From: Butyrivibrio sp. AC2005
Lineage (GTDB): Bacteria; Bacillota; Clostridia; Lachnospirales; Lachnospiraceae
NCBI RefSeq assembly: GCF_000424145.1
Contig: NZ_AUJI01000015.1
Span: forward strand, 1-64,000
Reading direction: 5' to 3'
DNA length: 64,000 nt
Below the pieces are notes generated by a model. The model did no database searches and was not told the DNA's origin. It was given only the letters and a program-made list of their open reading frames with translations. A program made the translations under genes and the position numbers. Positions 46,589 to 61,873 of this stretch are shown in pieces. Within the stretch, counting starts at the first letter, position 1, and each line of letters starts with the position of its first letter.

Positions 46589-46645
46589 AAAACGCTCACA
46601 AAAAAAGGTAGAAAGGAAGCGGGTTCTCGTTCCACAATCTTGAGT

Positions 46646-46676
46646 GTCACCCACTTTGTCACCCACTTTTGGGTGA
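46646..46676. repeat. Left arm-type repeats of the element
   Basis: GTCACCCACT at 46646-46655 and again at 46658-46667, then an inverted GGGTGA at 46671. The same decamer flanks the right end, so these are the likely integrase arm-binding sites. Confidence 0.65.
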
Positions 46677-46706
46677 ACCTATATCTTCTATAATTATATA
46701 ATACTA

Positions 46707-46760
46707 TCCCACTGAAAATGATAAAAGATATAATTCTTTCTCTTATCAGCTTCAGTGGGA
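46707..46760. terminator. Hairpin after the XRE gene
   Basis: 10-bp perfect stem (46707-46716 with 46751-46760) with a second inner stem (TGATAA/TTATCA). T-rich on the plus side; A/T-rich on the minus side, where it would end the XRE transcript. Confidence 0.5.
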
Positions 46761-46814
46761 TTATATTTTTCCATAACAACCGGAAGACATAGTATTCAAA
46801 TACCTCCCGGAGCT

Positions 46815-47018
46815 TTATTTTGTCTTATCGTGCTTTATGATATCTTCGACTTCGCAATCAAGTATAAAACACAAAGTGTCTAGTGTCTCCGTGGAACAGG
46901 GCAGACCTTTTTTGAGCCGATGAATAGTATTTGCCGATATCCCTTGCTTGAATATCATGTTGTATTCTGTTATCCCTTTGCGCTTCATGGTCGCAAATAA
47001 TGGGTCATAAGATATCAA
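46815..47018 (-). CDS. XRE-family helix-turn-helix repressor
   Basis: 67 residues from a TTG at 47018 with AAGGGTGG upstream; a longer frame to 47099 would read through the operator. A small Cro/CI-like domain (MKRKGITEYNMIFKQGISANTIHRLKKGLPCSTETLDTLCFILDC) fills the protein, the usual size of this family. It probably represses itself through the palindrome at its promoter and may control the element. Confidence 0.8.
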   Translation of the reverse strand: MISYDPLFATMKRKGITEYNMIFKQGISANTIHRLKKGLPCSTETLDTLCFILDCEVEDIIKHDKTK

Positions 47019-47069
47019 GCACACCACCCTTTCTTCTGACAGAAAAAGTTTAGCATGCTTAACCTCTTG

Positions 47070-47105
47070 ACTATACTCAATATATTGAGTATAATCCAAA
47101 ATGTA
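47070..47105 (-). promoter_or_regulatory. XRE promoter with 22-bp perfect palindrome
   Basis: A perfect 22-bp palindrome (47072-47093, half-site TATACTCAATA) overlaps a minus-strand promoter: TTGGAT, 18-bp spacer, TATAGT. A second palindrome, TATGTATATACATA, lies at 47122-47135. The layout fits autorepression by the XRE protein. Confidence 0.65.
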
Positions 47106-47176
47106 GAAATCATTTTATGTATATGTATATACATAATTTAATCATTTTGTGATTATCTTATGGAGGGATATTTTCT

Positions 47177-47221
47177 ATGAATATTAAAAGGTCAAAGCAC
47201 AAATCAGTAACAAGCTTTTAG
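47177..47221 (+). other. 14-codon ORF and hairpin-rich intergenic region
   Basis: GGAGGG followed 9 nt later by an ATG opens a 14-codon frame (MNIKRSKHKSVTSF), either a leader peptide or the stub of a lost gene. From 47300 to 47400 the sequence is GC-richer than its surroundings and holds small hairpins (47349-47357 with 47360-47368, and GGCGC/GCGCC). Nothing else was seen in 47140-47520. Confidence 0.3.
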
Positions 47222-47520
47222 CCTTTCCTTTGCACTTTGCATGGTAACATTCTCAATTTTTACACGAACAACTATGTATACTAGAAAAGATCCACACCTG
47301 TGCTCCGCTCCAGGTGCGAAGAACAACTTCTTTATATGATATTTTTCTGATGCGTCCAAGGACGCATCTCCTGGCGCTAAACGCGCCCCGGCTCTGCCCC
47401 TGAAGCCAAATCAAGAAAGTTTGAATTAGTTTTGTATAGAGGGATTGGGAAAATGTTATGAATGTCGGTTATTCTTAGAGAAGAGCCCAAATAGTTAGTT
47501 TCATTATGGAGGGAACAACA

Positions 47521-48453
47521 ATGAACAATAAGAAACTGAATATCAAAAAAATCCTAATGTGCCTCGCCCTTGCACTGATGCTCACCGGAACCTGCGCAGT
47601 TACTATCCCGCAGTTCACCATGACAGCATCTGCCAAGGCAAAGATCAGCAAGAAAAAGATCGAAATCAAACCCGGAAAAACCAAAAAGATCAAGATGTCA
47701 GGCATAAAAGGTGCTTCTGTGAAATGGTCATCATCAAACAAAAAGGTGGCAACCGTTGACCAGAACGGCAAGGTAAAGGCAAAGAAAGCCGGACAAGCCA
47801 CCATAAAAGCAAAGGTTAACGGAAAGACCTATAAATGCAAGGTATGTGTCCTCTGCAAGAGCCACAAATATGAAGAAGAAACAAAAGGTACCCCCACAAA
47901 AGGAAATCCCGTGGATAAGGTGCTCAAATGCACAGTCTGTGGTCACGAAGAAAACCATGGCAAGAAATACTGGACACCATCAGAAGCAGAGATACAAGCA
48001 AGTCTTGCAGAACTGAGACAGCGTTACCCAGAAAGAACGCCACTAGTAAATATACCAGGATGTCAGCCTGCTACCTGCCAGGGATGGGTGGAACTCGTAC
48101 AGAATCATGTTTTCGGAAATCTTGAAGGCATGAGAAGAGTTTATAATTATGACCTTTCCAAACTAAAGGTAGGAGATGCTATTGTTTATCAAGCATGGCA
48201 AGCTTTACATATCGTCTTTGTTACAGAGGTGAACGGCAACGAAATCATGGCTACTGAAGGTAATCCTACAACACTTTGGGATACACAATACAGAATAATA
48301 TCAAATTCAACAATTATGCAATATAATCACTGTATACTATACAATGATGATGGTTCAATCAGCAAAGTGTGGAACGAAATTGATACTTTAAATGACCCCA
48401 CCAATTTTGAAGTACGCTATGTCGAAACCTACTTCGACAATCAGCCGGAATAA
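47521..48453 (+). CDS. Secreted Ig-like (BIG2) plus CHAP/NlpC-like cysteine amidase
   Basis: 310 residues from the ATG at 47521 (GGAGGG 8 nt upstream). Signal peptide to about residue 38 (TASAKAK), BIG2-type Ig domain about 40-110 (VKWSSSNKKVATVDQNGKVKAKKAG), a Cys-pair linker (CVLCKSH, CTVCGHE), then a papain-like domain with candidate Cys in PATCQGWVELVQ and His in ALHIVFVTEVNG. Likely acts on the cell wall, of the host or of a mating partner. Confidence 0.7.
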   Translation: MNNKKLNIKKILMCLALALMLTGTCAVTIPQFTMTASAKAKISKKKIEIKPGKTKKIKMSGIKGASVKWSSSNKKVATVDQNGKVKAKKAGQATIKAKVNGKTYKCKVCVLCKSHKYEEETKGTPTKGNPVDKVLKCTVCGHEENHGKKYWTPSEAEIQASLAELRQRYPERTPLVNIPGCQPATCQGWVELVQNHVFGNLEGMRRVYNYDLSKLKVGDAIVYQAWQALHIVFVTEVNGNEIMATEGNPTTLWDTQYRIISNSTIMQYNHCILYNDDGSISKVWNEIDTLNDPTNFEVRYVETYFDNQPE

Positions 48454-48474
48454 TCGTATTTTTAACTGATACAC

Positions 48475-48529
48475 AAGACACCACGCAAAGGAATCATATC
48501 CGGAAAATGCGTGGTGTCTTATTTTTTTT
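48475..48529 (+). terminator. Strong terminator after the secreted amidase-like gene
   Basis: 13-bp perfect stem (48475-48487 with 48508-48520) followed by ATTTTTTTT. Confidence 0.88.
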
Positions 48530-48653
48530 AGCGAACGACGCACCCAAAACCAATAAATACCGTATACCACGAGCTTTTACGGCTTTAAATGTGATGCGCT
48601 AACTATGATATAATATGTATAAATGTTAATGTTTCAGCATTTCAGGAGGTAAT

Positions 48654-48884
48654 ATGGGTTTTATCAACGAAAAGATAGCAATAGATTTTGAAATTCCAAA
48701 AGATATTATTCCTACAGTAGAAATCTGTGAAGAGTTAAGCAAGCAGAATAACTGGGGATATGATGAATATGCTGATTTTCTTATAGATAATTTATGCAAG
48801 GAAGCATATAGACAAGGTCACATAACCAAAAAGCAATGGGATGCACTCGCTGAGAGATATCTTTCATATCCGGAAGATAATTAG
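48654..48884 (+). CDS. Small acidic hypothetical protein
   Basis: 76 residues, not recognised; acidic and helical. AGGAGG 5 nt before the ATG and a TATAAT-like box ~40 bp upstream. It precedes the HipA-like fragment by 12 bp, so it may have been the partner protein of that kinase. Confidence 0.6.
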   Translation: MGFINEKIAIDFEIPKDIIPTVEICEELSKQNNWGYDEYADFLIDNLCKEAYRQGHITKKQWDALAERYLSYPEDN

Positions 48885-48896
48885 GAGGGTACGTTT

Positions 48897-49100
48897 ATGA
48901 TAGATATCATTGATTTTAACGGCGCTCCCAAAAGCGATCGAGATGGTACATATTGCGGAGCTGCCGGATCCAAAGATGGAATTATATATAATGATGAATA
49001 CTGGATTCTGAAATACCCAAAAAACACCCGGAGCTTTCAAAAACAGAAGCGATATACGTTATGCATATATTCCCGATTCTGTAAAGGAAATTCCTGCTGA
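48897..49100 (+). pseudogene. Truncated HipA/CtkA-like kinase N-terminus
   Basis: A frame of 67 codons. Residues 1 to about 47 (MIDIIDFNGAPK, CGAAGSKDGIIYNDEYWILK, YPKNTRS) match the start of HipA/CtkA-like kinases in Clostridia. After that the frame turns into unrelated residues and stops, where LRR sequence in another frame takes over (from 49051). Only the nucleotide-binding start remains; no catalytic residues are left. Confidence 0.6.
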
Positions 49101-49520
49101 CTGTTTCAAAAACTGCAAGAACCTTAAAGTCGTTGCATGGGGATCCAATGCACTCAAAGCTTATGAAAAAGATGATGTCTTTAAAAGAAGCTGTCCCATC
49201 ACTTCAAAGACCAAGAAACGCATAAGAAAAGGTGCTTTTTCCGGATGTAAAAACTGAAAGAGTTCCAGCTTTACGGAGCTTATGCTGAAATCAAAGTCGA
49301 CAAGAACGCTTTTAAGAAAGACAAAAAGCAGATTACAGTAAAGACTTATGAAAAAGGATCTTATGCCAAGAAATTCATCAAGAATATTTCAGTTAAAGGC
49401 AAAGCTAAAAAGGAAGCCAAGACCAAGTGGGGCGTTCCAATCAGAGACAGTTGGGATACGAACTCAACAAATGAGCCGATCAAAGGCAAATCCAAGAAGT
49501 CTTCGAAGAAAAAAAAATAA
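49051..49520 (+). pseudogene. Remnants of a BspA-like leucine-rich-repeat surface protein
   Basis: Frame 1 (49051-49257) reads IPDSVKEIPADCFKNCKNLK and KGAFSGCKN, typical LRR_5 repeats, then stops. Another frame reads VDKNAFKKDKKQITVKTYEK, KFIKNISVKGKAKK and a Lys-rich end, stopping at 49518-49520. At least one frameshift separates them, and the start is fused to the HipA fragment. Confidence 0.6.
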
Positions 49521-49528
49521 TTCTTACT

Positions 49529-49567
49529 AAAGACAAGGAAACGACAAGCGTTTCCTTGTCTTTTTTC
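49529..49567 (+). terminator. Strong terminator after the LRR remnant
   Basis: 15-bp perfect stem (49529-49543 with 49549-49563), 5-base loop, then a T-run to 49567. Confidence 0.88.
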
Positions 49568-49687
49568 TTTACTGAACGACTCTTATAATCAAGCATTTTA
49601 AGCCACAATCTGAAACAAAAACACCCCGGAGAGCTAAGATACACTCTTCGAGGTATTTTTGTTCTATATAGAATATTATGAATCATC

Positions 49688-49866
49688 TTTCAGTCAACAT
49701 ATCTGTCGCTTCTTTCACCGTTACACTCTTCGCAGAGAACCCTAAGATTTGAATCATCATCAGAACCACCCTGGCTGAAAGGTATGATGTGGTCAACTTC
49801 AAGCTTTGCAGTACCACCAGCTCCAGGACCTTTTACACCACAGCATTGTTTTCCTATTTTTCCTAA
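49688..49866 (-). pseudogene. HNH endonuclease C-terminal remnant
   Basis: On the minus strand the frame reads GKQCCGVKGPGAGGTAKLEV then DHIIPFSQGGSDDDSNLRVL and CEECNGERSDRYVD before a stop. That is an HNH nuclease core with the DHI His and the C-x2-C pair. It has no start of its own. It is in the same frame as the gene that stops at 49867, separated from it only by that TGA. Confidence 0.65.
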
Positions 49867-50373
49867 TCATAAGTATGGATTACTGTATTTATTATCCTCA
49901 ATTTTCCTTACATCTGGTGACCTGCTACACCTTTCCAAAATTATTTTTCCGTAGTCCATATCTATATCATGTAAAGCACATATCTTATCCAGTATTTCAC
50001 GCTCATCCGGCTTATGATCAAAATAAAGATCATAAGCCAACCCTTCTGAGTTATCATCCGCTGCATAAAGCCATCCTTGTGTATGCCAGATTCTTTTTCC
50101 TTCTTCATTTTCGAGTACATCTATATCATTCGTGAAGTTATCCATCCTTGCATATGCTACATCCCACCACATATCACCAGCAACCTCACTCCAGCTAAAA
50201 TCCTCTGAGACCTCATACCCATGTTCTTCTAAGAATTCTCTTGTCTTCGCTTCCTCAGCACGAACTTCATAGCCAAACTCATACGGAATATACTCTCTCA
50301 GATAACTACAAAACGGATAACTGAATGTTTCAACTACTTCATATCCTTCCTGTTCCAAATCCTTTATATCCAT
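49867..50373 (-). CDS. Hypothetical protein, perhaps N-terminal part of an HNH fusion
   Basis: 168 residues from the ATG at 50373 (AGAGGT 6 nt upstream). Acidic, rich in Trp and Tyr, with the segment WWDVAYARMDNFTNDIDVLE. Family not recognised. It ends SNPYL-stop, and an HNH domain follows in frame after the TGA, so it may be a broken fusion or simply a neighbour. Confidence 0.5.
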   Translation of the reverse strand: MDIKDLEQEGYEVVETFSYPFCSYLREYIPYEFGYEVRAEEAKTREFLEEHGYEVSEDFSWSEVAGDMWWDVAYARMDNFTNDIDVLENEEGKRIWHTQGWLYAADDNSEGLAYDLYFDHKPDEREILDKICALHDIDMDYGKIILERCSRSPDVRKIEDNKYSNPYL

Positions 50374-50429
50374 TAAAATACCTCTTTCCCCCGTCAAGCC
50401 GCTAGGTCAGCTACTATTTTATAATTTAC

Positions 50430-52343
50430 TTACTTCTTTATGAATACATTTTTATATGAAGCTTTGAAATTCGACATGCAAATCTTACTCTGGTCACACC
50501 CCCGATAATACGGATTTGCCCATGAGTAGAGCTCATATTCGACTATCATGAGCTCGGGTTCTTTATTGTCGTCTTTATTGATGGCAACACATCCTTCATT
50601 AAATACCCACTCATCACCATAGTTCTGAGCTATGTAATGCTTAACTTTATCAATGACACCGTGCTTACCGATGAGTTTTCCCGAAGGATTATTCTTCTGA
50701 CACCACTTTAAGTACAGCTCATAGATAAATGTCTGAGGAACCTTGTTCCACACGAGCTCGGGGAATATCTCCTCTACGAACTGCAGTACAGGGTCATTAA
50801 ACTCCTTATACTCAGCAAGGAGAACCTTACATGCATCCGGCTCAGGAAGCACATAATAATCGGGTATGTTCATGACCTTCCAAAGTACGTATTCCAATAC
50901 TTCCGGTCTGTGCAGATAATCTGACTTGATATAGGGTCTGTCTGATCCTCTAAATGTCTTCTCGAAAGGAACAAACAGCATTCTACGATATAGAGAATCT
51001 GTTTGATCTCCTGTTCTAGGCAAGCTGTTCACACATTCAACAATTAGACCTCGATACTTGTAGTTAATTATTGATTTGTTTTTTCTGTTTATGCCTACTT
51101 CATCATGAGTTATCAAAGCTTTAAGCTTTCCCATTTTCTGCGAGTAGCAATTCGTGTCGTTTTCGTCGGTAATGACTGCTGTGGCTCCAATTAGTGGCTC
51201 AAGCCCGAAGGTATCATTGAAATCGCTAATAGGGATACTTACATATGTTCCCACTCCACATAACTGCTTCATCAATTCACATAATGTACCCTTACCATTG
51301 CAACCAACTTGAGAATAAAACATAATCATCTTGTCAATTCTCAGATTCGGTCGAATTATTGCCCCAATCGTTTTCAATAATAAATCTACAATCTCAGGAT
51401 CATCAGATAAAGAGTTAATCCATTCATCAAAATTCCACACTACTCCATCAGGCATAACTATTTCAGGCGATTGCGAAAAACCTGCTTCTATATAGTTAAC
51501 CCTGCATTTTTGGGTGAAACAAATCTCTGGATCAAAGTTACTTAACTTTTTTGTTTGGTAATTAAGTATTCCATTGTTAACTGCAACAATATTTTCATCT
51601 TCACATGGCATTATCAAAGTTGCATTTGCATATAAAATGCTCTTTACTTCATCTACATCATGATCTGTACATGTATACTTAATTTGTTCAACCATTCCTC
51701 TTAGGCTTAAATCTATGTCAACATATATTCCTTCATCAGGACCGTTATCCTGATATACCATCAACATACATCTATCATCTCTTTTTCCAGTAAATGAAAC
51801 AATTCGTACGTGATAATACTGCAAAATTATTTTCGCGATAGCCTGATTAGGCAGCGGCTTTATGCGGAATTTTGAGGTAAGTATTTTGTTCACACGATTG
51901 ACTATCTTCTCTATCTCTTGGGCATATTTCTGATCCCATCCACTTGTCGCAACATGAACATAAGTTATTATTTCATTGATTGTTTGATTATATATATGGC
52001 GCTTCAGGCCATCTCTTAGCTGTTCAACTTTATATTGATTGGGCGGATTAGGCAATGATGCAAAAAAAGAATCCACCGCGCGTTGAATGCTTGATTCATC
52101 ATCACCTAATGGAGATAAATCAATTTGATTATTAACGTAAAGAAAAATTGGGGAGTTATTAATCTGAGTAATATCATCATCCGTTCCTAGATTAATATTT
52201 GCTTCAGATTCAGAGTTAAGACTTGGTAAAATCATATTGCTATTTCCTTTCAAATAAAGCGGAAGCTTCCATTTCCTGCTGTTGACAAGACTATAACAAC
52301 TTTCATTTTTATTGTCAATATGCACAATTATTCTTTCAGCCAT
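50430..52343 (-). CDS. P4/D5-type phage-plasmid helicase-primase
   Basis: 637 residues. The C-terminal half is a superfamily 3-like helicase with Walker A GCNGKGT (347-353; the usual NGKS/T reads NGKG), Walker B-like AVITDENDTN, and the family segment NYKYRGLIVECVNSLPRTGD and RRMLFVPFEKTF. The N-terminal half is unassigned. Such proteins open replication origins of satellites and integrated plasmids. The iteron-like region lies directly upstream. Confidence 0.85.
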   Translation of the reverse strand: MAERIIVHIDNKNESCYSLVNSRKWKLPLYLKGNSNMILPSLNSESEANINLGTDDDITQINNSPIFLYVNNQIDLSPLGDDESSIQRAVDSFFASLPNPPNQYKVEQLRDGLKRHIYNQTINEIITYVHVATSGWDQKYAQEIEKIVNRVNKILTSKFRIKPLPNQAIAKIILQYYHVRIVSFTGKRDDRCMLMVYQDNGPDEGIYVDIDLSLRGMVEQIKYTCTDHDVDEVKSILYANATLIMPCEDENIVAVNNGILNYQTKKLSNFDPEICFTQKCRVNYIEAGFSQSPEIVMPDGVVWNFDEWINSLSDDPEIVDLLLKTIGAIIRPNLRIDKMIMFYSQVGCNGKGTLCELMKQLCGVGTYVSIPISDFNDTFGLEPLIGATAVITDENDTNCYSQKMGKLKALITHDEVGINRKNKSIINYKYRGLIVECVNSLPRTGDQTDSLYRRMLFVPFEKTFRGSDRPYIKSDYLHRPEVLEYVLWKVMNIPDYYVLPEPDACKVLLAEYKEFNDPVLQFVEEIFPELVWNKVPQTFIYELYLKWCQKNNPSGKLIGKHGVIDKVKHYIAQNYGDEWVFNEGCVAINKDDNKEPELMIVEYELYSWANPYYRGCDQSKICMSNFKASYKNVFIKK

Positions 52344-53032
52344 ATATGGTTATTTGTGCATATTATATATATTGCACTAATTCTTATTTTTTATTTCACC
52401 GCGAATTAGTCACGTAGCACAAATGCGCCATATATGGCTATTCGTGCAATTTGCTTATTTAATTTCGGCTATTTCGGCGAATCTTTGTATATTATTTTTT
52501 TAATTTTTATAGAATCGCACACAAAAAGGAGCACATCAGCTATATATGCATCTGTACTTCTTCTCTTATATGATTTCACCAATATAATATTACTATATTG
52601 TTAATTTTTTGTCAATTGTTGAACTCCTAGAAATTCATATTTATTTTTTCTATATCTAAAAACCAGTAACCGTCTGGAAATTAAACATTTATAGAAAATA
52701 TAGAAATTTAATTTTAATAATTTCACATCAATCAATCTCCAATATATAATATTCAATCCTCTATCATATATAAATAAATTCTATAATTTCTATAATCCCT
52801 TCTAAACCGCGTAACCATGCGATTTATCTCTATAGAATTATTTTCTGTGAAATTCTATCATTTCTATAAATGCCCCGCTTTTTATACCAATAATGGAGAT
52901 TAGATGTAATTTTGGCTGTGATATTATTTTATCTTCGCTCCATTGTTCTATATGTCACGTTATCTGTTACGATTGTCTTAGGCAAAAATAGGCACTCCAC
53001 TTATACGGAGCGCCCTTATAATAATCAGTTAT
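52344..53032. other. AT-rich, iteron-like region, candidate replication origin
   Basis: No gene in 690 bp. Next to the helicase start lie two CCATATATGG-centred repeats, each followed by TATTYGTGCA, at 52340-52360 and 52432-52452. From 52646 to 52870 the motif TTTCTATA or its complement TATAGAAA recurs in a very AT-rich setting (around 52646, 52690, 52700, 52780, 52790, 52830, 52850, 52861). Repeats plus AT-rich DNA beside a replicative helicase fit an origin; this is inference. Confidence 0.5.
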
Positions 53033-53350
53033 TCAATTTGTTTTAAATGAAACAAAAGAAAGATCCTGCTCTTTTCCCTGATCCAAGATATTAAGAAGGC
53101 GGTATGCAGGACCCGTAGGATGAGTTCTCCCCAGTTCCCATGCTTCAACAGTCTTTTTTGATACACCCATATAACTTGCAAAAACAGTCTGTGTCATGCC
53201 AGCTTTATTTCGAATATTCTTTATCTCTTCATTAGTATACTTTGTGACAGGTGATATCATAAATGTCGTAGACTTAGCCTTACTAATTCCCTTTTCGAAA
53301 TCAATAGCCTGTTGCAAGCCTTCACATAAATCATCAAAAAGCGCACTCAT
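53033..53350 (-). CDS. HigA-type antitoxin (HTH)
   Basis: 105 residues from the ATG at 53350 (AGGAGG 7-8 nt upstream). The C-terminal half is a Cro/CI-like helix-turn-helix (IKNIRNKAGMTQTVFASYMGVSKKTVEAWE), the N-terminal part probably binds the toxin. Lies 5 bp downstream of the toxin gene; toxin-first order is typical of hig loci. Confidence 0.85.
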   Translation of the reverse strand: MSALFDDLCEGLQQAIDFEKGISKAKSTTFMISPVTKYTNEEIKNIRNKAGMTQTVFASYMGVSKKTVEAWELGRTHPTGPAYRLLNILDQGKEQDLSFVSFKTN

Positions 53351-53355
53351 AACTG

Positions 53356-53724
53356 TCACCTCCTATTCTTTCCAGCTTCTTCCTTTAAAGACTTCACCAG
53401 TTTTTTCAAGATGTTCTTTTCTTGTTTTGTTAGGTTTACCTGCTCGTCCTTGGTGAAAGCTGTGATAAGATAAATAACTTCATATTCCTCAAAATCAGTA
53501 TAACAAACGCGAACACTACCACTTTTTCCCCTGTTCTCCAATGGAAATCTCACTTTTCTGATACCACCAGTTCCTTCCATAACCGGTCCAGATTGCGGAT
53601 CCTTTAATAACATGATCTGCAAAGCTAAAAGCTCATCATCTCCAAGTCCAATCTCTTCCCATCTTTTTGAAAAAAGCGGTACTTCTATAAATGTTCTTAT
53701 TAAATCGTCTTCATAGTTTTTCAT
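53356..53724 (-). CDS. RelE/HigB-type toxin
   Basis: 122 residues, RelE-like fold of the HigB-2 kind: VMEGTGGIRKVRFPLENRGKSGSVRV and YEVIYLITAFTKDEQVNLTKQEK. Such toxins cut mRNA on the ribosome. With the antitoxin it may stabilise the element. Confidence 0.86.
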   Translation of the reverse strand: MKNYEDDLIRTFIEVPLFSKRWEEIGLGDDELLALQIMLLKDPQSGPVMEGTGGIRKVRFPLENRGKSGSVRVCYTDFEEYEVIYLITAFTKDEQVNLTKQEKNILKKLVKSLKEEAGKNRR

Positions 53725-53730
53725 GCTTTA

Positions 53731-53759
53731 ATTATACACCCTACAATGTAGGGTGTCAA
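53731..53759 (-). promoter_or_regulatory. higBA promoter with operator in the spacer
   Basis: Perfect -35 TTGACA (53759-53754) and -10 TATAAT (53736-53731) with 17-bp spacing. The spacer is a near-complete 21-bp palindrome (53736-53756, half-site ACACCCTACA, central A). This fits direct autorepression by the antitoxin. Confidence 0.85.
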
Positions 53760-53852
53760 TCTTGCAATCTATCTATTATTCTCTTACCTCAATTTATATC
53801 ATTTAGCAATATTTGAGTTTATAAAAAGTTAATGTCTCATAAATGAGAAGTC

Positions 53853-53870
53853 CAGTATTTATGCGGCTTT
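53853..53870. repeat. 18-bp repeat shared with the integrase leader
   Basis: CAGTATTTATGCGGCTTT here is found exactly, inverted, at 60127-60144. The rest of 53760-54090 is AT-rich without a convincing gene. Confidence 0.75.
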
Positions 53871-54104
53871 AGGCCATTGTTTTGTGCCTCAAAACAGGTT
53901 AAGGTGTACTTATAGGACATGTGCTGGATCACATTTTAGAACAGTGGCTGGAATCATATATATAACCCTGATGTTCCTTCATGAAGCATGTTACTATCGC
54001 CTACATAAATCGATTATAAAGGAACATCTCATCACTTATATATCTACTTTTAAAGCAGATAATTTCTTGGATATTGTAATTCAATTTTATGTGTTCCAGC
54101 ACTA

Positions 54105-54260
54105 GTTCCACACCGGAACGCCAAAAACGCCCGCAGCCCGCTCTGTTGCAGTGTAGTCGTGGCTCAAGGACCCGCGACTACACTGCAACATGCATAACTA
54201 TTCCAGAACGAGTACTGGAATGGTTACTAGCGCCTGCGGGCCTGGCGAACCGGAACAAGA
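54105..54260. other. GC-rich nested hairpins, oriT-like or structured RNA
   Basis: Centre: a 16-bp perfect inverted repeat (54144-54159 with 54175-54190; 19 bp with a G-T pair). Around it are GCCCGCAG/CTGCGGGC (54129-54136 with 54234-54241), GTTCC/GGAAC and TTCCAG/CTGGAA hairpins. GC content is far above the flanks. It stands just before the Replic_Relax-like and coupling-protein genes, where an oriT would be expected. Confidence 0.55.
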
Positions 54261-54302
54261 TCAATATACTTTTTACTCGATCATTTAAAGGAGTACCTCA
54301 AA

Positions 54303-55307
54303 ATGGAAAAAATAAAAAATGTAATTGTTACTGAATTGGATATCGAAATTCTAAAGTGTCTATATAAGATGATGTTTCTGACTGAGACCCATATTAGCGT
54401 TTTAGTAGGTGAGAACTTAGGGTACGTAAAAGGAAGGCTAAAAAAACTTTGTACTGCAGGTTTAATTACAAGAACCACTCCAAACGGTATAGCTGTCAAT
54501 TGTATAACTAAAGCAGGTATAGCTGAGTTGGGTTTACCATATAGAAATATAGTAAAACCAAAACTTGGAAGATACGAGCACAATCTTGGTGAAGCAGATG
54601 TTTACGTATGGCTATCTATGTGGAGACGTTTTCAAGATGGCACTGAACATAGCTGGATACCATTTGGAAGCATTGTAACTGAGCGCGATATAGCAGCTGT
54701 TAAAGGAATGCACATAACAGGACACCGGAAAGATGGGCAGCCTATTTATGTCTCTGATGATAAAGATATCCATATACCTGATGGATATATCATTAGAAAG
54801 GATTCTTTTGCAGCTATTGAATATGAACGTACTGCTAAATCAAGTAACGCAATACTTAAGTCAAATATTAGAGAAAATATGCGGAGATTTCATTTTCAAT
54901 ACTGGATATATGATGATCCTTATGTTGGTAAAATTCTTTATGATCAGCAAAAAGAACTTGGGAAAAACTTAATGGCCGTTTATGACATACGTCAGATTCG
55001 GAAAGATATTGATGCTTATAAAGACAGAATTCCCTCTATTATATCTCAAAAGACCGGCATCCCTCGTAAATCCTGCTTGGGAACCCTGCTAGATCCTATT
55101 CCTCTGAATAAACTTCCTCTTCGTCCGACTTTTCAAAACCAAGTTACTTTTGAGAGTAGAGATAACTCTGTGGAAATGGCGTCAAAGAATCAAATCATAA
55201 AATCTGCTCCTGATAATATCACACCTAATGTAGCTACTCAAAGAAATCCATCTGAACCTGTTCAGAACAGACCTTTCAATGTCAAATCCTTTTTTGAAAG
55301 GAGGTGA
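54303..55307 (+). CDS. Replic_Relax-like winged-helix protein
   Basis: 334 residues. N-terminal winged helix (about 10-75: EILKCLYKMMFLTETHISVL, LCTAGLITRTT), then a domain with HIPDGYIIRKDSFAAIEYER and TAKSS, the pattern I associate with replication-relaxation (PF13814-type) proteins of Gram-positive plasmids and integrative elements. Overlaps no gene; the coupling-protein gene starts 6 bp after it. It may bind or process the oriT/origin, which is inference. Confidence 0.65.
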   Translation: MEKIKNVIVTELDIEILKCLYKMMFLTETHISVLVGENLGYVKGRLKKLCTAGLITRTTPNGIAVNCITKAGIAELGLPYRNIVKPKLGRYEHNLGEADVYVWLSMWRRFQDGTEHSWIPFGSIVTERDIAAVKGMHITGHRKDGQPIYVSDDKDIHIPDGYIIRKDSFAAIEYERTAKSSNAILKSNIRENMRRFHFQYWIYDDPYVGKILYDQQKELGKNLMAVYDIRQIRKDIDAYKDRIPSIISQKTGIPRKSCLGTLLDPIPLNKLPLRPTFQNQVTFESRDNSVEMASKNQIIKSAPDNITPNVATQRNPSEPVQNRPFNVKSFFERR

Positions 55308-55313
55308 CAAACC

Positions 55314-56945
55314 ATGATAGGTTTATACTTATTAACACTTATAGCTTTAATAATATGTCCCATTTCCGTTATTTTTATTATTTCTGCTGTCATAGCTAAC
55401 CATACCATATTTCATCGGAGATACTGGGGATATCTTATCATAGCAAGTTCCAGTGCAATAATTTTTTACATAGGAGTTCGTATAAATTCGCCAGTCATTC
55501 CTTTAGTTAAGACTAGAGAAATCATAGCAACAGCCTTTCCTTTTCTTGGGTGGGAGTTTAAGAAGATTGATACAATATCATATATCCTCAGCGATTTTAG
55601 GACCCTAGGGGTTGCACTTGTACTTGAGTCGGTTTCTTTGTATCTAGCTACTCTAACTCCCGAGCGCATGATGATCAATGGAGAACGCCAACGAGAAAAG
55701 TCAAAAATGACTCTACAGCGTATAGATTATATTCCCAAGCGAAGCCAGGTCATCTTTGGCGTTTCTGGATCTGGGAAAAGCGCCTATATCGGAAAATCCA
55801 TTGAGGAAATTCTAAGTAAAAATCCAAGTTCTTTTGTTGTCATTGTTGACGGTAAAGGTAGCACAGAAAAGTACTCTCTATTCTACTCGTGTATGATAAT
55901 AGCAAAAAAGCTTGATAAAAGGCTGGTCGTAATAAATGGAACCTCCAATAACGAATTATCTGACTATGTCTATGATTTTCTCGAAGGAATAGAATCTACT
56001 GATGCCATGAAGGATATGGTCATGTCTCTACTTGATAATCCTTCTGTACAAGCTTCAGCCGGAAGCGAACACTATAAAGTCATAACCGAGAGATACATTC
56101 TTAAGATAATTGAGTTCATGCAAAGCCATGATATCGATGTGACACTTTTTAATCTTCTAAAGCTCCTTGATCCAGCAGATCTTAACGCTGTACTTGATCA
56201 AATGGATTTTGATTCATCAGAAAAAAAAGAGTTAAAAAGATTTGTTGATGATAGCTGGTCTGATGTTAGGGCAAATGTTGAAAAGTTAAAAATGTTTATG
56301 GATGGCCAGGGTAAAAAAATATTTACCGGAGAAGGAGAACGTATAAATTTACGGACTGCTTACTCTCAAAGGGATATAGTTCTTGTTCTTGCAGATGAGA
56401 TGTCGATGCCGGAGCTCGCTTCAAAACTTGTACAACTGGTAGCATACGACCTCCGCAACCTTATAGCAGGCAGGTTGACAGGCTCTATTGACATGAACGA
56501 TAAAATTTACAGTTACTGGGACGAATTTTCCGGCTACACATCTGCTACGAAAACACTGCAATCAATCTATGCCCGCGCACGAAGTGCTGATTGCATATGC
56601 AGTCTTGCTACGCAAAGCTGCTCAGACATCATCGGCCTTGGGGATGGCTGGTTTGAACGTATAATTGATACAGCTGATCGCTATGTAATTTTCAGACAGA
56701 ACTCTGCTGAAGCTGCTGAATCTGCGGCATCAATATTCGGTACAGAGCTTCATGTTACTGATACCGCACGTACAAGTGAGCTACAATCCACCGGTGAAGC
56801 ATCTAATACTGTAGATAGAAGTTTTATTGTGAGTCCTGATATGATTCGTAATCTTATGGTAAACAGAGGCTTCTTATTAGATAAAACAAAAAGACCTAAC
56901 CACCAGCTAAAGTACTTTAAGAATAAATTCGTAAAGGAGAACTGA
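55314..56945 (+). CDS. VirD4/TraG-like coupling ATPase
   Basis: 543 residues. Three N-terminal membrane segments, P-loop GVSGSGKS (149-156), Walker B-like IYSYWDEFSG, and the TraG/TraM-recognition tail (ARARSADCICSLATQSCSDI, RYVIFRQNSAEAAESAASIF). Coupling proteins bring relaxed DNA to a mating channel. None of the channel genes is in the window, so the element would borrow one from another plasmid or ICE. Confidence 0.82.
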   Translation: MIGLYLLTLIALIICPISVIFIISAVIANHTIFHRRYWGYLIIASSSAIIFYIGVRINSPVIPLVKTREIIATAFPFLGWEFKKIDTISYILSDFRTLGVALVLESVSLYLATLTPERMMINGERQREKSKMTLQRIDYIPKRSQVIFGVSGSGKSAYIGKSIEEILSKNPSSFVVIVDGKGSTEKYSLFYSCMIIAKKLDKRLVVINGTSNNELSDYVYDFLEGIESTDAMKDMVMSLLDNPSVQASAGSEHYKVITERYILKIIEFMQSHDIDVTLFNLLKLLDPADLNAVLDQMDFDSSEKKELKRFVDDSWSDVRANVEKLKMFMDGQGKKIFTGEGERINLRTAYSQRDIVLVLADEMSMPELASKLVQLVAYDLRNLIAGRLTGSIDMNDKIYSYWDEFSGYTSATKTLQSIYARARSADCICSLATQSCSDIIGLGDGWFERIIDTADRYVIFRQNSAEAAESAASIFGTELHVTDTARTSELQSTGEASNTVDRSFIVSPDMIRNLMVNRGFLLDKTKRPNHQLKYFKNKFVKEN

Positions 56946-56946
56946 C

Positions 56947-57426
56947 ATGAATACAGATAAAAATTTCGACATTATTTTGGACAATATGGAACTGGGATCA
57001 AAAGTTCTTCATGTGCCTTTTTCCAGAGATATAGTTGAATTTAAGGATAATCTTCCTTCATTTGAAGGTGGCTTTTTTAATCAAAAGACTAAAACTATCG
57101 AGGTTTCAATAAATCAAGATCTCTCTATTATGCTATTTAACGCAATACATGAGCTATGGCATTATGCTGCGGACTATAAAGGAATGTCAAAGAGTACATC
57201 TACAAAAGATCCTATCATGGATTATGACGAGATCATGGCTGATGCCTTTGCTCACACATTTTTGAGTTTCCTCTATATGGATCAAGATGCTCTGTACCTC
57301 CAGAACCTAAAACTAAAATACACACACGATAAGGGCGCTAGGAGAAAAGCCATTGATAAAATGTATTTTCTCTACTCTTTAAGGCTTTTCTTCTACTCTC
57401 ATTGTAGACATATCACTTCTTTATAG
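56947..57426 (+). CDS. ImmA/IrrE-like metallopeptidase
   Basis: 159 residues. Zinc motif HELWH (His68, Glu69, His72) with the third ligand likely in DEIMADAFAHTFL (Glu95). Related ImmA proteins of ICEs cut the element's repressor to switch on transfer. Gap of 1 bp to the coupling gene. The XRE protein of this element is a possible target, by analogy only. Confidence 0.75.
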   Translation: MNTDKNFDIILDNMELGSKVLHVPFSRDIVEFKDNLPSFEGGFFNQKTKTIEVSINQDLSIMLFNAIHELWHYAADYKGMSKSTSTKDPIMDYDEIMADAFAHTFLSFLYMDQDALYLQNLKLKYTHDKGARRKAIDKMYFLYSLRLFFYSHCRHITSL

Positions 57427-57921
57427 AAACTGATATTTCTCCTGCGGAGAAATCTTGAAAGCATTTGCGCCAAAAGACTCCCTGTGCCTGATGTGGTTCG
57501 GGCTTATCGCAGGGTTCTCCTGAATATTATACAGTTACCTGCTGCAAGCATCATTTCACATATGATTTCTCTGCTCTTCTTTGAAATTACCACAGAGATA
57601 TTTCATGCCGGATTTCCGCCCATGCGCCCGGAAAACATAACAGCAGGACACGGCTTCCATGTCCGCGGTTGTCATTAGTATTGTTAAGGTTGCTTCAATC
57701 TCCTTCTCTGAGCCGCTATATGCTCTATCCAATAATCACGGAAATCCTCACTTAATCAGTGTGCGCACATTCAGCTTTCTGCATCATACTTCGGACTTCC
57801 CATATTGCAAGGACAAGCGTTGTGCCGGCGGAGCGGCATCCTTGTCAATACGGTTGCCCTTCGTAGGCTGATACGACAAGCAGAATGGTCTGCGAACACA
57901 GTTTTAAGGAGGATTATAACC
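57427..57921. other. Gene-free stretch
   Basis: A hairpin ATTTCTCC/GGAGAAAT (57435-57442 with 57446-57453) follows the ImmA-like gene, without a T-run. The remainder holds only short frames with no ribosome site and no recognisable protein. A segment around 57800-57860 is GC-richer. It may be a decayed gene. Confidence 0.3.
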
Positions 57922-58218
57922 ATGATTATTGAAGTAACGAGCGTAAAGATAAGCGACACAGAGGTGGAGATTGAAGGTAACAACCTAGAAACAATCCTTG
58001 TAAATGACAACCTTTTTGAGGACATGGAATCAGATACATGCAAGTTTGTTTTTCCCAGAGCACATGAGGACGGCGGAATGCCTGCAATGAAGTATCTCTA
58101 TCGTGTGGTAACTTCACAGAAGAAGTGCAAGGACGAGAAATCATTTGGCGAAATGATTGAGAAGCTTGCATCAGGTAACTGCATCATATCCTTATCGGAG
58201 AACTTCCTTCAGCGATAA
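57922..58218 (+). CDS. Hypothetical 98-residue element protein
   Basis: Starts at the ATG at 57922 with AAGGAGG upstream. Begins MIIEVTSVKISDTEVEIEGN, acidic with mixed α/β character and no motif I know. A strong terminator follows directly, so it is the end of a transcript. Confidence 0.6.
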   Translation: MIIEVTSVKISDTEVEIEGNNLETILVNDNLFEDMESDTCKFVFPRAHEDGGMPAMKYLYRVVTSQKKCKDEKSFGEMIEKLASGNCIISLSENFLQR

Positions 58219-58230
58219 GCTCCAACCACG

Positions 58231-58258
58231 ACAGGCTCCTTCGGGAGTCTGTTTTTTT
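58231..58258 (+). terminator. UUCG-loop terminator
   Basis: ACAGGCTCC/GGAGTCTGT stem (58231-58239 with 58244-58252, one G-T pair) closed by TTCG and followed by seven T. Confidence 0.9.
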
Positions 58259-58626
58259 GCGCAAACGAAACTGAGAAAACCCCCGACACCCAGAGCAGAC
58301 CGTAAAAAACATCCGGTCATCCTTCCCCGGTTTTCTCAGACTCTTTCCCCGAGCTGATGGATAAGAGAGAAGAGTAATCCAAAAATAATGATCATGAAGT
58401 TGATTGTGGTGGGATGGATTCTTATATGCCCCACAGTACTTCTGATGAAGCATATAAGGAATCTCCTTACAAAGTGCATACGACAGCTTTGGCTTCACAC
58501 TAGCCGTCTAGGACAGAACCGGCAAGGGTATACGGAGCTGCATGCAGCCCTTGCAGAACCTGTCCCTCCCGGCTGGACGTGTGGCAAAGCAGTCGTATCA
58601 ATGCACCTTGAAAGGAGAATGAGCCT

Positions 58627-58668
58627 ATGTGCGTTTTTACATCAGAAGCCCTGTGGGGCAACAGATAA
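58627..58668 (+). other. 13-codon ORF upstream of the DUF5688-like gene
   Basis: AAAGGAG then ATG opens MCVFTSEALWGNR-stop, a possible leader peptide 43 nt before the next start. Nothing else was seen in 58259-58711; the long in-frame extension of the next gene to 58388 lacks a ribosome site and reads like non-coding sequence. Confidence 0.3.
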
Positions 58669-58711
58669 AAAAGAAAAAGATGATGATTATAAGAAAAAGG
58701 AGATTAACAAT

Positions 58712-59620
58712 ATGATGACAGTGAGTGTTGCGGATTTTACGGATTTCAAGAATGAGGTTGTAAGGAACATTATGGATTTCCTGCCGAAGGGATATGAGGA
58801 TTCCGAGATAAAACTAAATGATGTGGTAAAGAACAATGATAGAAAGCTCTGCGGACTGACAATCAAGAGAAAGGATGTAAACATGGCACCTACGATCTAT
58901 CTAGATGATTTTTATAAGGACTATGAGAACGGAAAGAGCATGGATAAGGTCCTTGAAGAGATTGCAGATGTGAGAGAAAGATTTGATGTAAAGGAAGATT
59001 ACGATGTCTCCTACATATCAGATTTTGACAGCTGCAAGGATAAGGTATTGCCAAGACTTGTAAGCGGAGAGATGAATACAGAACTTTTGGAAGACAGACC
59101 ACACCGGTTTGTTGATGATCTTGCAGTGATATATGCAATAGAGATTAACGATGAAATGAGCATTCCGGTGTCTAACAGAATACTGGATATGTGGGGGATC
59201 ACGGAAGAAGAACTTAATAAACAGGCAGTTTCAAATATCCCTGAGAAAGCTCCTAGCACGTTAATTTCTATTGGAGAAGTCCTTAAAAGAATGATGAATG
59301 CTGATGATGTAGATGACATGTTTCCCATAGATAATGCATTTTATGTACTCAGTAACCGACAGCAGAAATTTGGTGCAGCAGCGCTACTGGATTCAAAGAT
59401 GATGCAGTCAATTGTTGAAAGATTTGGAGAGTTCCATATCCTGATGTCAAGTGTGCATGAAGTCCTGATAATTCCAGCTGATTTAACGAGCGATAAAAGA
59501 GATCTGGAATTCATGGTAAAAGAGGTAAACCGCACAATCGTTAATCCAATAGACAGACTTTCAGACAACATATATACCTACTCTGCAGAAAAAGGACTCT
59601 GTAGAACACAAAAAGACTAG
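58712..59620 (+). CDS. DUF5688-like protein
   Basis: 302 residues from the ATG at 58712 (AAGGAG 9 nt upstream). Resembles DUF5688 proteins, common in Lachnospiraceae mobile elements: NIMDFLPKGYEDSEIKLNDV, APTIYLDDFYKDYENG, FHILMSSVHEVLIIP. Soluble, no signal or membrane segment. Function unknown. Confidence 0.7.
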   Translation: MMTVSVADFTDFKNEVVRNIMDFLPKGYEDSEIKLNDVVKNNDRKLCGLTIKRKDVNMAPTIYLDDFYKDYENGKSMDKVLEEIADVRERFDVKEDYDVSYISDFDSCKDKVLPRLVSGEMNTELLEDRPHRFVDDLAVIYAIEINDEMSIPVSNRILDMWGITEEELNKQAVSNIPEKAPSTLISIGEVLKRMMNADDVDDMFPIDNAFYVLSNRQQKFGAAALLDSKMMQSIVERFGEFHILMSSVHEVLIIPADLTSDKRDLEFMVKEVNRTIVNPIDRLSDNIYTYSAEKGLCRTQKD

Positions 59621-59656
59621 CTGAGGTATCGGCTAAACGGCCAGAAAGGAGATTTC

Positions 59657-59773
59657 ATGGATTTTTGGTATGACTTTTTTAAAGGATATTTCTACAGCCA
59701 TATTTTAAAAACAATATATTTGAATATATCTGAGAAAACAATAAATAAGTTGTCAAAAAAAAGATATTTATGA
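59657..59773 (+). CDS. Small aromatic-rich ORF (38 aa)
   Basis: AAAGGAG 6 nt before the ATG. Residues MDFWYDFFKGYFYSHILK then a basic end. An aromatic amphipathic helix is possible. Lies between the DUF5688-like and ArdC-like genes. Supported only by its ribosome site. Confidence 0.4.
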   Translation: MDFWYDFFKGYFYSHILKTIYLNISEKTINKLSKKRYL

Positions 59774-59793
59774 AGAAAGCAAGGTGATTGGTC

Positions 59794-60081
59794 ATGACAA
59801 ATAGGCAGATTATTGCAAAAGCTGCAATTGATCATGGGCTATATACTGATATGCAAGTTGTAGAGATGTTAGATAATAACGAAGACATTCCTTTACATAC
59901 ACTTCAAGGATGGAATTTGATAGGTTCAAAAAAAGGTGTCAAATATAGAATCCGTGAAGGCGAGTATGGTATCAAGTGTAAATTATGGAAAAAAAGAGTT
60001 GTTAAAAACTCTTCTCTAGAATTTTATCTAACAACATCTTACCTTTTTTCTGATAAGCAGATAGAATTAGTCACTGATTAA
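59794..60081 (+). CDS. Small ArdC-like N-terminal-domain protein
   Basis: 95 residues from the ATG at 59794 (AAGGTG 7 nt upstream). The segment HTLQGWNLIGSKKGVKYRIR, then EGEYGIKCKLWKK and TSYLFSDKQIEL resembles the ssDNA-binding/anti-restriction domain of ArdC-type proteins. The usual C-terminal peptidase is absent. Assignment by pattern only. Confidence 0.45.
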   Translation: MTNRQIIAKAAIDHGLYTDMQVVEMLDNNEDIPLHTLQGWNLIGSKKGVKYRIREGEYGIKCKLWKKRVVKNSSLEFYLTTSYLFSDKQIELVTD

Positions 60082-60110
60082 AATTGATTATAATTCTTTA
60101 TGATTTTTCT

Positions 60111-60144
60111 TAACCATATATGGCTGAAAGCCGCATAAATACTG
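60111..60144. repeat. Composite repeat linking integrase leader, helicase start and 53.85 kb
   Basis: 60111-60130 (inverted) equals CTTTCAGCCATATATGGTTA at 52333-52352, over the helicase start codon. 60127-60144 (inverted) equals 53853-53870. Both matches are exact and overlap by 4 bp here. Confidence 0.8.
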
Positions 60145-60153
60145 AGTTTTTCT

Positions 60154-60182
60154 GTTGACGATCTTTTTCTTATCCGGTATCA
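60154..60182 (+). promoter_or_regulatory. Promoter of the integrase leader
   Basis: TTGACG (60154-60159), 17-bp spacer, TATCAT (60177-60182). Transcription would start near 60190, about 290 nt before the integrase ATG. Confidence 0.7.
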
Positions 60183-60189
60183 TGAATGT

Positions 60190-60446
60190 AAAGTAAATTA
60201 CATATTTCATTCACGGAGAGGCCAAGACAGCAGGAAGATTCTTCTACTTACTTCCTGCATTGATGGGTGCACCGGACAGTAGAATGTGGGATGCCGTAAC
60301 CACAGATAAAAAGCGGATAGTCCAGACGCAAAGCTACATTTTATAGTTTATGGACGAAAAAAAGCGATCTCAGATAGGAGCGCGACGGGTGAATGCTTAC
60401 AACTCAGCTAAACTGCTGTTGTAAGTGTTCGCCCGCTTTTTATTTG
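60190..60446 (+). ncRNA. Structured leader RNA with terminator before the integrase
   Basis: Contains a hairpin GCAGGAAG/CTTCCTGC (60229-60258), a TCCA...TGGA arm around GACGCAAAGCTAC (60324-60336), and GCG..CTC/GAG..CGC (60364-60383). It ends with an 18-bp hairpin (60386-60403 with 60418-60435) and CTTTTTATTTG, a very strong terminator 35 nt before the integrase start. GACGCAAAGCYAC is a core piece of c-di-GMP-I (GEMM) riboswitches, but the upstream GEMM half is not clear. Confidence 0.6.
60386..60446 (+). terminator. Intrinsic terminator gating the integrase
   Basis: 18 paired bases (three G-U), 14-nt loop, then a T-rich run. No gene lies between the promoter and this terminator, so it acts as an attenuator. 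Confidence 0.85.
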
Positions 60447-60480
60447 CAGTAATTGATATATTACAAAGGGCATGGTTACT

Positions 60481-61719
60481 ATGGATAGATCAACTCAGTC
60501 TTTTACAATTTCAGAAATCACGCTATTATTAAGTAGTGGAACAATGGAACCCGCAATGGTACAAGATATGTTAACTGTTGCAAAAAAGAATTATGTTCTC
60601 TCAAGACATAGCCAAAGTATTGCTCCCATGCCCCATGCAAAAGGCAGAAAAAAAGGCATGTGGAAAACTTATGTCTATGTCGAAGGTAAAAGAAAGGAGT
60701 TTCTTGGGAAGGACGAGTTTGAACTATATGATAAACTTTATGATTACTACACTAAGATAGATAATGCCTCAAAAACTCTTATAAGTGTTTTTGAACAGCT
60801 GTGCTCATATAAGAAAACTGTCATGATGCGGAGCCAGAACACTATCGATGATGACCGCTCATTTTTCTCTAATGTATCTACAGAGCTTCAGACCTCAGCA
60901 ATTCAGGACATCACTGAAGATGATGTTCGTTATTGGATTGTTAACGATTTTGTTTTGAAGCATCCAAAAGTTTCACGTTTCAAAAAGACTCTACAGTTGC
61001 TAGACCAGGTTTTTGAGTATGGTCGACGTAAGAAGGCGTGTACTGAAAATCCCATGTCATATATTCCTATAAGCGATTATCTTAGATACTGTGATACTAG
61101 CAAAAAAACAGATGAAGAAAAAGCTTTTTCTGAGAATGAGCTAAGAAGGATTTCTGAAGATACTCAAAGTCAGCAGTCAAATCCCCGTGCTTTAATGGCA
61201 CTTCTTGCAATGGAGACTGGCTGCAGAGCAGGAGAACTTCCGGCAATTCATGTTGATGACATTAACGATGATTACATACATATCCATCGTCAGCAGCTTC
61301 GTGAATCTGACCCAGAAACAGGGAAAAATCGGATATATGAAGTTAGCTACACTAAGGACGAGCGTACTCACCCACATGACGGAAGATATATTCCCCTTAC
61401 AGACAAGGCAAAAGCTGTAATCAAAGCGGCACATAATATTCCGGGAAAATCTGTTTATCTGTTTCATGACCCTAATAGTGATGCCATGGTAACCAAGGAT
61501 AGTTATTCACACAATCTCCGGAAACGCTGTTTGAGACTTGGATGTGTACCAACCAACAACCATGCTTTCCGGATGGCATTCAATTCCAGGCTGATCAGAC
61601 TTGGCTTTAGTGCTGATGACAGAGCACTCATTCTTGGTCATGAAGTTCAGACAAATGAATCCCACTACTCGCTTACTGATAAGCGCAGACTTGATGAGAT
61701 AAAGTCTCGTCTAAAATAA
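60481..61719 (+). CDS. int: Tyrosine site-specific integrase
   Basis: 412 residues from the ATG at 60481 (AAGGG 10 nt upstream; an ATG at 60472 abuts the site). Tn916-type layout: small N-terminal arm-binding domain, SAM-like core-binding domain (about 95-190), catalytic domain with Arg249 (GCRAGEL), His361-x2-Arg364 (HAFRMAF), His387 (LGHEV) and Tyr396 (SHYSL). Probably recombines the CCTCCTAAGCGG cores. Confidence 0.95.
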   Translation: MDRSTQSFTISEITLLLSSGTMEPAMVQDMLTVAKKNYVLSRHSQSIAPMPHAKGRKKGMWKTYVYVEGKRKEFLGKDEFELYDKLYDYYTKIDNASKTLISVFEQLCSYKKTVMMRSQNTIDDDRSFFSNVSTELQTSAIQDITEDDVRYWIVNDFVLKHPKVSRFKKTLQLLDQVFEYGRRKKACTENPMSYIPISDYLRYCDTSKKTDEEKAFSENELRRISEDTQSQQSNPRALMALLAMETGCRAGELPAIHVDDINDDYIHIHRQQLRESDPETGKNRIYEVSYTKDERTHPHDGRYIPLTDKAKAVIKAAHNIPGKSVYLFHDPNSDAMVTKDSYSHNLRKRCLRLGCVPTNNHAFRMAFNSRLIRLGFSADDRALILGHEVQTNESHYSLTDKRRLDEIKSRLK

Positions 61720-61720
61720 A

Positions 61721-61744
61721 AAGAAGCCTTAATAATGGCTTCTT
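61721..61744. terminator. Bidirectional terminator int / tRNA-Arg
   Basis: AAGAAGCC/GGCTTCTT (61721-61728 with 61737-61744), T-run on both sides. It separates the convergent integrase and tRNA genes. Confidence 0.85.
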
Positions 61745-61748
61745 TTAG

Positions 61749-61822: not shown

Positions 61823-61854
61823 TTATTTATGATAATGGATGTGATATAAAATCT

Positions 61855-61873
61855 GTCACCCACTGTCACCCAT
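61855..61873. repeat. Right arm-type repeats of the element
   Basis: GTCACCCACT at 61855-61864 followed directly by GTCACCCAT at 61865-61873, the same motif as at the left end. It lies 51 bp inside the right core. Confidence 0.65.

Follow-up and report, generated by a model that had tools for sequence, protein, structure and literature searches.

A nested hairpin block upstream of a predicted MOBC-type relaxase gene as the proposed oriT of an integrative mobilizable element in Butyrivibrio sp. AC2005

Results

The integrated element and its genes

The window, that is, the whole 64-kb stretch of Butyrivibrio sp. AC2005 DNA that was analysed, contains an integrated element with the following features.

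46578-61935, no strand: integrated element, from core CGCTTAGGAGG to core (15,347 bp core to core)
50430-52343, minus strand: P4-family primase/helicase gene (TIGR01613 above cut-off), possibly for replication of the excised element
53033-53724, minus strand: gene pair for an HTH antitoxin-like and a RelE-like toxin protein
54303-55307, plus strand: predicted MOBC-type relaxase gene, 334 aa (weak PF13814 match, invariant residues, predicted fold)
55314-56945, plus strand: VirD4/TraG-type coupling protein gene, 543 aa, after the relaxase gene (PF12696 above cut-off)
60472-61719, plus strand: tyrosine integrase gene (PF00589 above cut-off)
61748-61822, minus strand: the element's own tRNA-Arg (cct), intact, beside the integrase gene

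Two pieces of a tRNA-Arg were found 15.3 kb apart, and ARAGORN recognised an intact tRNA-Arg (cct) in the joined flanks and no tRNA at either junction alone. The element interrupts this tRNA-Arg (CCU) in the anticodon region, with neither end keeping a tRNA. The tRNA-Arg (CCU) that the element itself carries differs in sequence from the split one and is apparently a replacement. A repeat of the 3' end of the intact tRNA-Arg was also considered as the attachment site and rejected, since an exact search gave nothing and permissive blastn only weak matches; the ends of the element proved to be the two halves of another tRNA-Arg.

With its integrase gene and defined ends, the element is classed from its sequence as a putative integrative mobilizable element. 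It is most likely mobilizable and not self-transferring, because no secretion-channel gene was recognised among the element proteins searched, which covered part of its ORFs. Possible helpers are VirB4-like genes elsewhere in the genome, which were above the cut-off on contigs 6 and 31 and below it on contig 11. A cluster of 5 TTTCTATA sites, out of 13 in the whole window, was found within 222 bp (52647-52868) upstream of the primase gene. The same stretch contains two copies of a 20-nt direct repeat, starting at 52776 and at 52850, and is a candidate replication origin of the excised element.

Structure of the hairpin block

Folding of the region 54080-54310 with DNA energies gave one nested unit at 54113-54253, which ends 49 bp before the ATG of the relaxase gene (54303). 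The parts of this block and the repeat adjoining it are as follows.

54113-54253, plus strand: nested hairpin block, proposed oriT core (DNA fold energies; layout kept upstream of relatives)
54113-54116/54250-54253 (4 bp) and 54119-54123/54243-54247 (5 bp): outermost stems of the block
54129-54136 (5' arm) and 54234-54241 (3' arm), plus strand: 8-bp enclosing stem, GCCCGCAG/CTGCGGGC
54139-54142/54229-54232: 4-bp stem
54144-54190, plus strand: inner hairpin, stem 54144-54162/54172-54190 (19 bp) with a 9-nt loop
54156-54158, plus strand: inner-stem GTC that corresponds to the relatives' GGTC core; proposed nick region
54195-54226, plus strand: second hairpin beside the inner one, stem 54195-54206/54215-54226 (12 bp)
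53921-54102, plus strand: weaker nested inverted repeat next to the block (strict score 25, one of two at this score)

The block contained 52 pairs, 50 of them Watson-Crick and 2 G-T, and its free energy was -54.9. Dinucleotide shuffles averaged -25.8 (sd 3.6), so that the z of the block was -8.1, and none of 200 shuffles was as good. When the fold energy was corrected for GC, the block ranked first among 2128 windows of 180 nt in the 64 kb. The GC content of the block was 58.9%, compared with 33.5% for the preceding 200 bp, 28.6% for the gap between the block and the gene, and 38.4% for the 64-kb window as a whole, and the value of the block was unmatched by any other 141-bp window sampled every 10 bp over the 64 kb. 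The block is not due to chance in this window. Its strict ungapped nested-repeat score was 27, the top of the window and narrowly above the two repeats at 25; the strength of the block lies in its bulged, multi-stem fold rather than in a strict ungapped repeat. The original prediction had described GC-rich nested hairpins in AT-rich DNA, with a 16-19-bp repeat inside an 8-bp arm pair and more hairpins, and this description was borne out by the fold energy and the GC contrast, as well as by the 19-bp inner stem, the enclosing arms and the 12-bp hairpin. The position that it gave, ~45 bp before the gene, also held, since the block stops 49 bp before the ATG.

In the region adjoining the block, five copies of CTGGA occurred in mixed orientation within 53880-54302, and a 19-nt repeat pair with 74% identity was present at 53910/53934. 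The longer pattern CTGGAWYR was not enriched across the window (17 found versus 18.9 expected). The repeat at 53921-54102, with the CTGGA copies, is a possible protein-binding part of the oriT.

The predicted relaxase

The relaxase scored 17.2 bits with Replic_Relax (PF13814), below the curated cut-off of 25.3 bits, and it is therefore named MOBC-type and not a member of the Pfam family; the relatives L034 and L029 exceeded this cut-off. PF13814 has been equated with the MobC relaxases in one survey (PMC5357655). An alignment of 12 rows, consisting of relatives and TraX of pAM373, contained only six invariant residues, namely L49, H93, D160, E173, E175, and K179. Of these, D160, E173, E175, and K179 correspond to the residues reportedly mutated in TraX, D152, E170, E172, and K176. 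Tyr181 of TraX, reportedly proposed as catalytic, is not known to be a family-defining MOBC residue, and no tyrosine was present at this position of the alignment in the product of 54303-55307. Among the columns past the winged helix, only that of W103 of this product had tyrosine in at least 6 of the 12 rows. According to PMC12857230 and PMC9299015, MOBC relaxases have no known covalent intermediate.

The predicted N-terminal part, residues 8-78, matched a MarR-family chain with a Z of 13.1 and an rmsd of 1.4 over 71 aligned residues. When the C-terminal residues 82-250 were folded alone, 6 of the best 8 structural rows were restriction or nicking enzymes, which were PaqCI (Z 8.0 and 7.4), EcoT38I (7.6), R.BspD6I2 (7.5), BstEII (7.2), and the nicking enzyme Nt.BspD6I (7.0); the match was moderate, with the best Z of 8.0 near the aligner's 'common' level and RNA polymerase subunits listed too. 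The fold assignment was taken from this second structural aligner and its Z scores, not from Foldseek, which gave no match at E <= 0.001 for either model. Comparison of the relaxase profile A2 with the sequences of solved structures gave a best E of 0.52. The fold matches, together with the D/E-x-E/K pattern, suggest that the C-terminal domain is PD-(D/E)XK nuclease-like. According to the review PMC12857230, MOBC relaxases are PD-(D/E)XK-related and TraX contains a winged helix. The product of 54303-55307 thus looks like a MOBC-type relaxase, predicted from its models to combine a MarR-like winged helix with a PD-(D/E)XK-like domain.

Conservation of the nested layout among relatives

Close relatives of the relaxase were uncommon, with matches in 3 of 194 genomes, its own genome included and the other two weak. 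Looser searches extended these to plasmids of Streptococcus, Enterococcus, Carboxydocella, Sporomusa, Rothia, and Vibrio and to genomes of the same class; Streptomyces (partial) and a second Vibrio plasmid were also matched. The window relaxase gave no match in the phage collection, the viral contigs, or the genome contigs, the last searched with peptide patterns, and the L034 relaxase gave none in the viral contigs.

From 27 relaxase-profile matches, 23 loci were scored, after removal of L015, L078, and L079 (sisters of L014, L017, and L016, respectively) and of L027, a weak relaxase match without a coupling-gene match. A VirD4-type coupling gene was present in all 23. The strict nested inverted repeat was defined by an inner stem of at least 11 bp and an outer stem of at least 8 bp, at most 900 nt upstream of the relaxase gene, and 176 control upstream regions were drawn from the scored loci themselves. 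Among these loci, which are partly non-independent owing to related upstream DNA, a nested score of at least 23 was reached by 20 of 23 versus 23 of 176 controls, and a score of at least 30 by 16 of 23 versus 4 of 176. Grouping by upstream DNA (match E <= 0.001) gave 15 groups, with 13 scoring at least 23 and 12 at least 27. Similarity of the upstream DNA was confined to a few clusters, and the window's region was absent from the best 40 rows of the comparison, which implied that it is mainly the architecture rather than the letters that the loci have in common. A lack of conservation beside homologues of 54303-55307, which the original prediction had named as counting against it, was thus not what we found. 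In 14 of the 23 loci no window of the locus folded better than the best upstream one; in the other 9 the best fold was elsewhere. The distance from the block to the relaxase gene varied from 8 to >700 nt.

The block was missing upstream of the relaxase gene in three of the 23 loci (L068, L069, and L077). L068 and L069 also had no strict nested repeat of at least 23 between the relaxase and coupling genes, and the best-folding window of L068 was at the end of its relaxase gene; L077, from Vibrio, had a strong 23-bp inverted repeat before the coupling gene instead. The score of L073 was weak (23, the 90th percentile of the controls). Six of the 11 loci (L067-L077) that were added once the hypothesis had been formed were clear, namely L067, L070, L071, L072, L075, and L076, with L071 and L072 related to each other, while L073 and L074 were weaker or distant and the remaining three were the negative ones above. 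L074 has a second strong nested inverted repeat at 9052-9195, ~2.8 kb upstream from its relaxase gene, with an inner stem of 20 bp that contains GGTC and an outer stem of 12 bp; this repeat may be the actual oriT of L074. The Replic_Relax loci L025, L026, and L028 had no relaxase-profile match and, by eye, no such block upstream, and coupling-profile matches were obtained in 3 of L025-L028.

The inner-stem core and the DNA-only search

GGTC was the commonest tetramer of the inner stems, found in 14 of 20 and missing from 6, against a shuffled mean of 2.7, and none of 5000 shuffles reached 14; this statistic is only a guide, because the choice of tetramer followed inspection of the stems, and there is some relatedness among the rows. 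The tip of the inner hairpin in the window, GGCT...ACCC, is like that of Clostridial relatives by eye. The cut in CloDF13, reportedly G/GTC, coincides with the GGTC of the inner stems. The block of the window carries AGTC (54155-54158), not GGTC, so that a cut between A54155 and G54156 is only a prediction, made by analogy.

A DNA hairpin pattern was built from the tip common to L029, L030, L034, and L067, with no protein information used. Scanning of the genome collection with this pattern gave 55 loci. In 12 of them the hairpin was followed, after 72-369 nt, by a MOBC-like relaxase gene on the same strand, and for 11 of the 12 a coupling gene was present within the stretch examined. Nine of the 12 were new, and L094, L120, and L128 were the already known L029, L034, and L030; according to the record titles, 11 came from Clostridia groups and 1 from Tenericutes. 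All 12 had strict nested scores, ranging from 25 to 51. No relaxase match was found in the other 43 pattern loci, including three Oscillospiraceae contigs (L114, L132, and L134); many of these 43 came from GC-rich groups, e.g. Actinobacteria, where the palindrome may have arisen by chance. The same pattern gave 5 loci in the viral contigs, 0 of them with a relaxase match.

The 12 aligned hairpins contained 24 doubly changed cells, and their covariation score was 0.347 versus 0.076 in shuffles (0 of 500 as high). The nine stem pairs not fixed by the pattern comprised 102 Watson-Crick, 0 G-T, and 6 unpaired cells. An RNA helix is expected to show G-U steps, and a DNA inverted repeat is not; a function at the DNA level is favoured, since the stem letters covary without G-T pairs.

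Discussion

The block at 54113-54253 is very probably the oriT of a MOBC-type integrative mobilizable element, and it might also serve as a rolling-circle start. The original prediction had offered an oriT or a single-strand origin, and our results support this proposal and favour its oriT half, because of the two-domain MOBC layout of the protein, the coupling gene that comes next, and the same nested layout in pAM373 and CloDF13.

In the mechanism that we propose, the element would be excised by its own integrase, and the relaxase would bind the block region through its predicted MarR-like winged helix. The nested repeats would extrude as hairpins or a cruciform and thereby expose the site, and the PD-(D/E)XK-like domain would nick in or beside the inner stem, near GTC 54156-54158, a placement suggested by the GGTC core of the relatives and the reported nick site of CloDF13. 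The extruded repeats may later mark the termination and closure of the transferred strand. The VirD4-type protein of the element would pass this strand to the channel of a co-resident conjugative element, a foreign channel being invoked because no recognised channel gene was among the element proteins searched. A more general model, which seems to us possible rather than probable, would have MOBC relaxases act as structure-guided nickases, with a restriction-enzyme-like fold and no conserved tyrosine after the catalytic residues, that recognise a nested, extruded cruciform whose core is G/GTC; the shape of the DNA and not its sequence would be kept across bacteria, either strand would be nickable, and the site would double as the replication origin in small plasmids.

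The block could also be mainly a replication origin, of the rolling-circle double-strand or the single-strand type, with the protein as initiator and with transfer secondary or absent. For the 5.6-kb plasmids of S. mutans, the homologue of the relaxase gene has been named Rep and that of the hairpin has been described as a double-strand origin (PMC3547324). Rolling-circle synthesis can start from relaxase nicking (PMC5704250), and 0 of the 5 genes listed for pUA140, in an incomplete table, are annotated as an initiator. We nevertheless regard this role as unlikely to be the main one, since the protein resembles a MOBC relaxase, all 23 scored loci have a coupling gene, the element's own primase with the clustered TTTCTATA repeats provides a better vegetative origin, and pSSP59 and pAM373 carry the block plus annotated replication genes.

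Control of the relaxase operon is a still weaker contender, whether at the level of RNA or of the winged helix. An RNA leader, attenuator, or terminator could be placed here, since a promoter upstream, if there is one, would make the block, 49 bp from the start codon, a part of the transcript, but this explanation is highly improbable: no intrinsic-terminator-like site was present in 53700-54400, where there was also no Rfam match at the gathering score, the free stem columns of the relatives contained no G-T pairs, and the block is found at very different distances from the gene, with the repeat of L077 before the coupling gene. The suggestion that the block is only a transcription terminator, raised in the original prediction as its possible undoing, therefore failed. 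The MarR-like fold of the N-terminal part and the location before the operon are also consistent with an operator that the winged helix binds purely for autoregulation, in which case the true oriT would be at another place in the element. We give this the smallest chance of all, since the blocks of like layout in pAM373 and CloDF13 are at reportedly mapped oriT or nick sites, and since a single short palindrome is usually enough for an operator, with no need of nested structures that span ~100-250 bp.

Returning to the oriT reading, large inverted repeats in MOBC oriTs are already known for single plasmids. In the literature searched, mostly outside subscription papers, no account was found of a conserved nested design with a common core across MOBC loci, and the design common to the relatives is a useful generalisation. 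The window block is a candidate oriT of a relaxase class about which little is known in Clostridia and their relatives, and the design gives a simple rule for finding transfer origins missed by sequence similarity: a nested inverted repeat, often with GGTC in its inner stem, before a relaxase and VirD4-type pair. The plasmid collection types L014, L016, L017, L075, and L076, all with the gene pair and the block, as 'non-mobilizable', and pAM373 and pCCELLA01 as mobilizable, MOBC. The mobility of plasmids may be under-called.

Comparison with known systems

The oriT of Enterococcus faecalis pAM373, reportedly mapped by Francia and Clewell in 2002, is, together with oriT2 of pAD1, among the known systems closest to the window block. 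At 14392-14533 of pAM373, an 18-bp outer arm surrounds a 26-bp inner stem. Like the window, pAM373 has a big nested inverted repeat in its transfer region and a TraG-type coupling gene nearby, and its TraX resembles the window relaxase in the D and E-x-E-xxx-K residues; it differs in sequence and in having the block ~600 nt before traX and the coupling gene on the opposite side, and the window relaxase differs in having no Tyr181 counterpart. pAM373 has been cited as an oriT with inverted repeats (PMC6414798). In pAD1, direct repeats bound by the relaxase are located 70-120 bp from the nick (PMC12857230), whereas TraX-type binding repeats as described there were not clearly found in the window.

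CloDF13, an E. coli plasmid, differs from the window in that its block is upstream of a coupling-type gene, and the profiles used barely detected its MobC and MobB regions (E 0.0008 and 0.28). Its reported nick motif was matched once, at 9752-9762. This site is enclosed by nested stems, as is the proposed one in the window, with the GTC core in a stem, and is upstream of the gene annotated for mobilization. Nick sites inside an inverted repeat have been published for pMET1 and HPI-ECOR31 (PMC2262945), in which the order oriT-mobB-mobC is like that of CloDF13.

Among the named plasmid records, the closest relaxase/coupling gene pair was that of pSt0 and its sister pST64987. Streptococcus pSt0 and pUA140 have the nested block immediately before the relaxase gene as in the window, and unlike the window element they are small plasmids. 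A GEBRO RNA (RF02988) was observed a few hundred nt upstream of the block in both of them (7528-7870 in L014, which is pSt0, and 5167-5510 in L016, which is pUA140), and none was found in the window at the gathering score; this RNA may be part of the replication or transfer origin of these two plasmids. The streptococcal IMEs with MobC and VirD4, of which the set of PMC5357655 includes just 2, have other hosts and another integrase, but like the element of the window they are integrated and carry their own relaxase and coupling protein (PMC5357655, PMC5704250).
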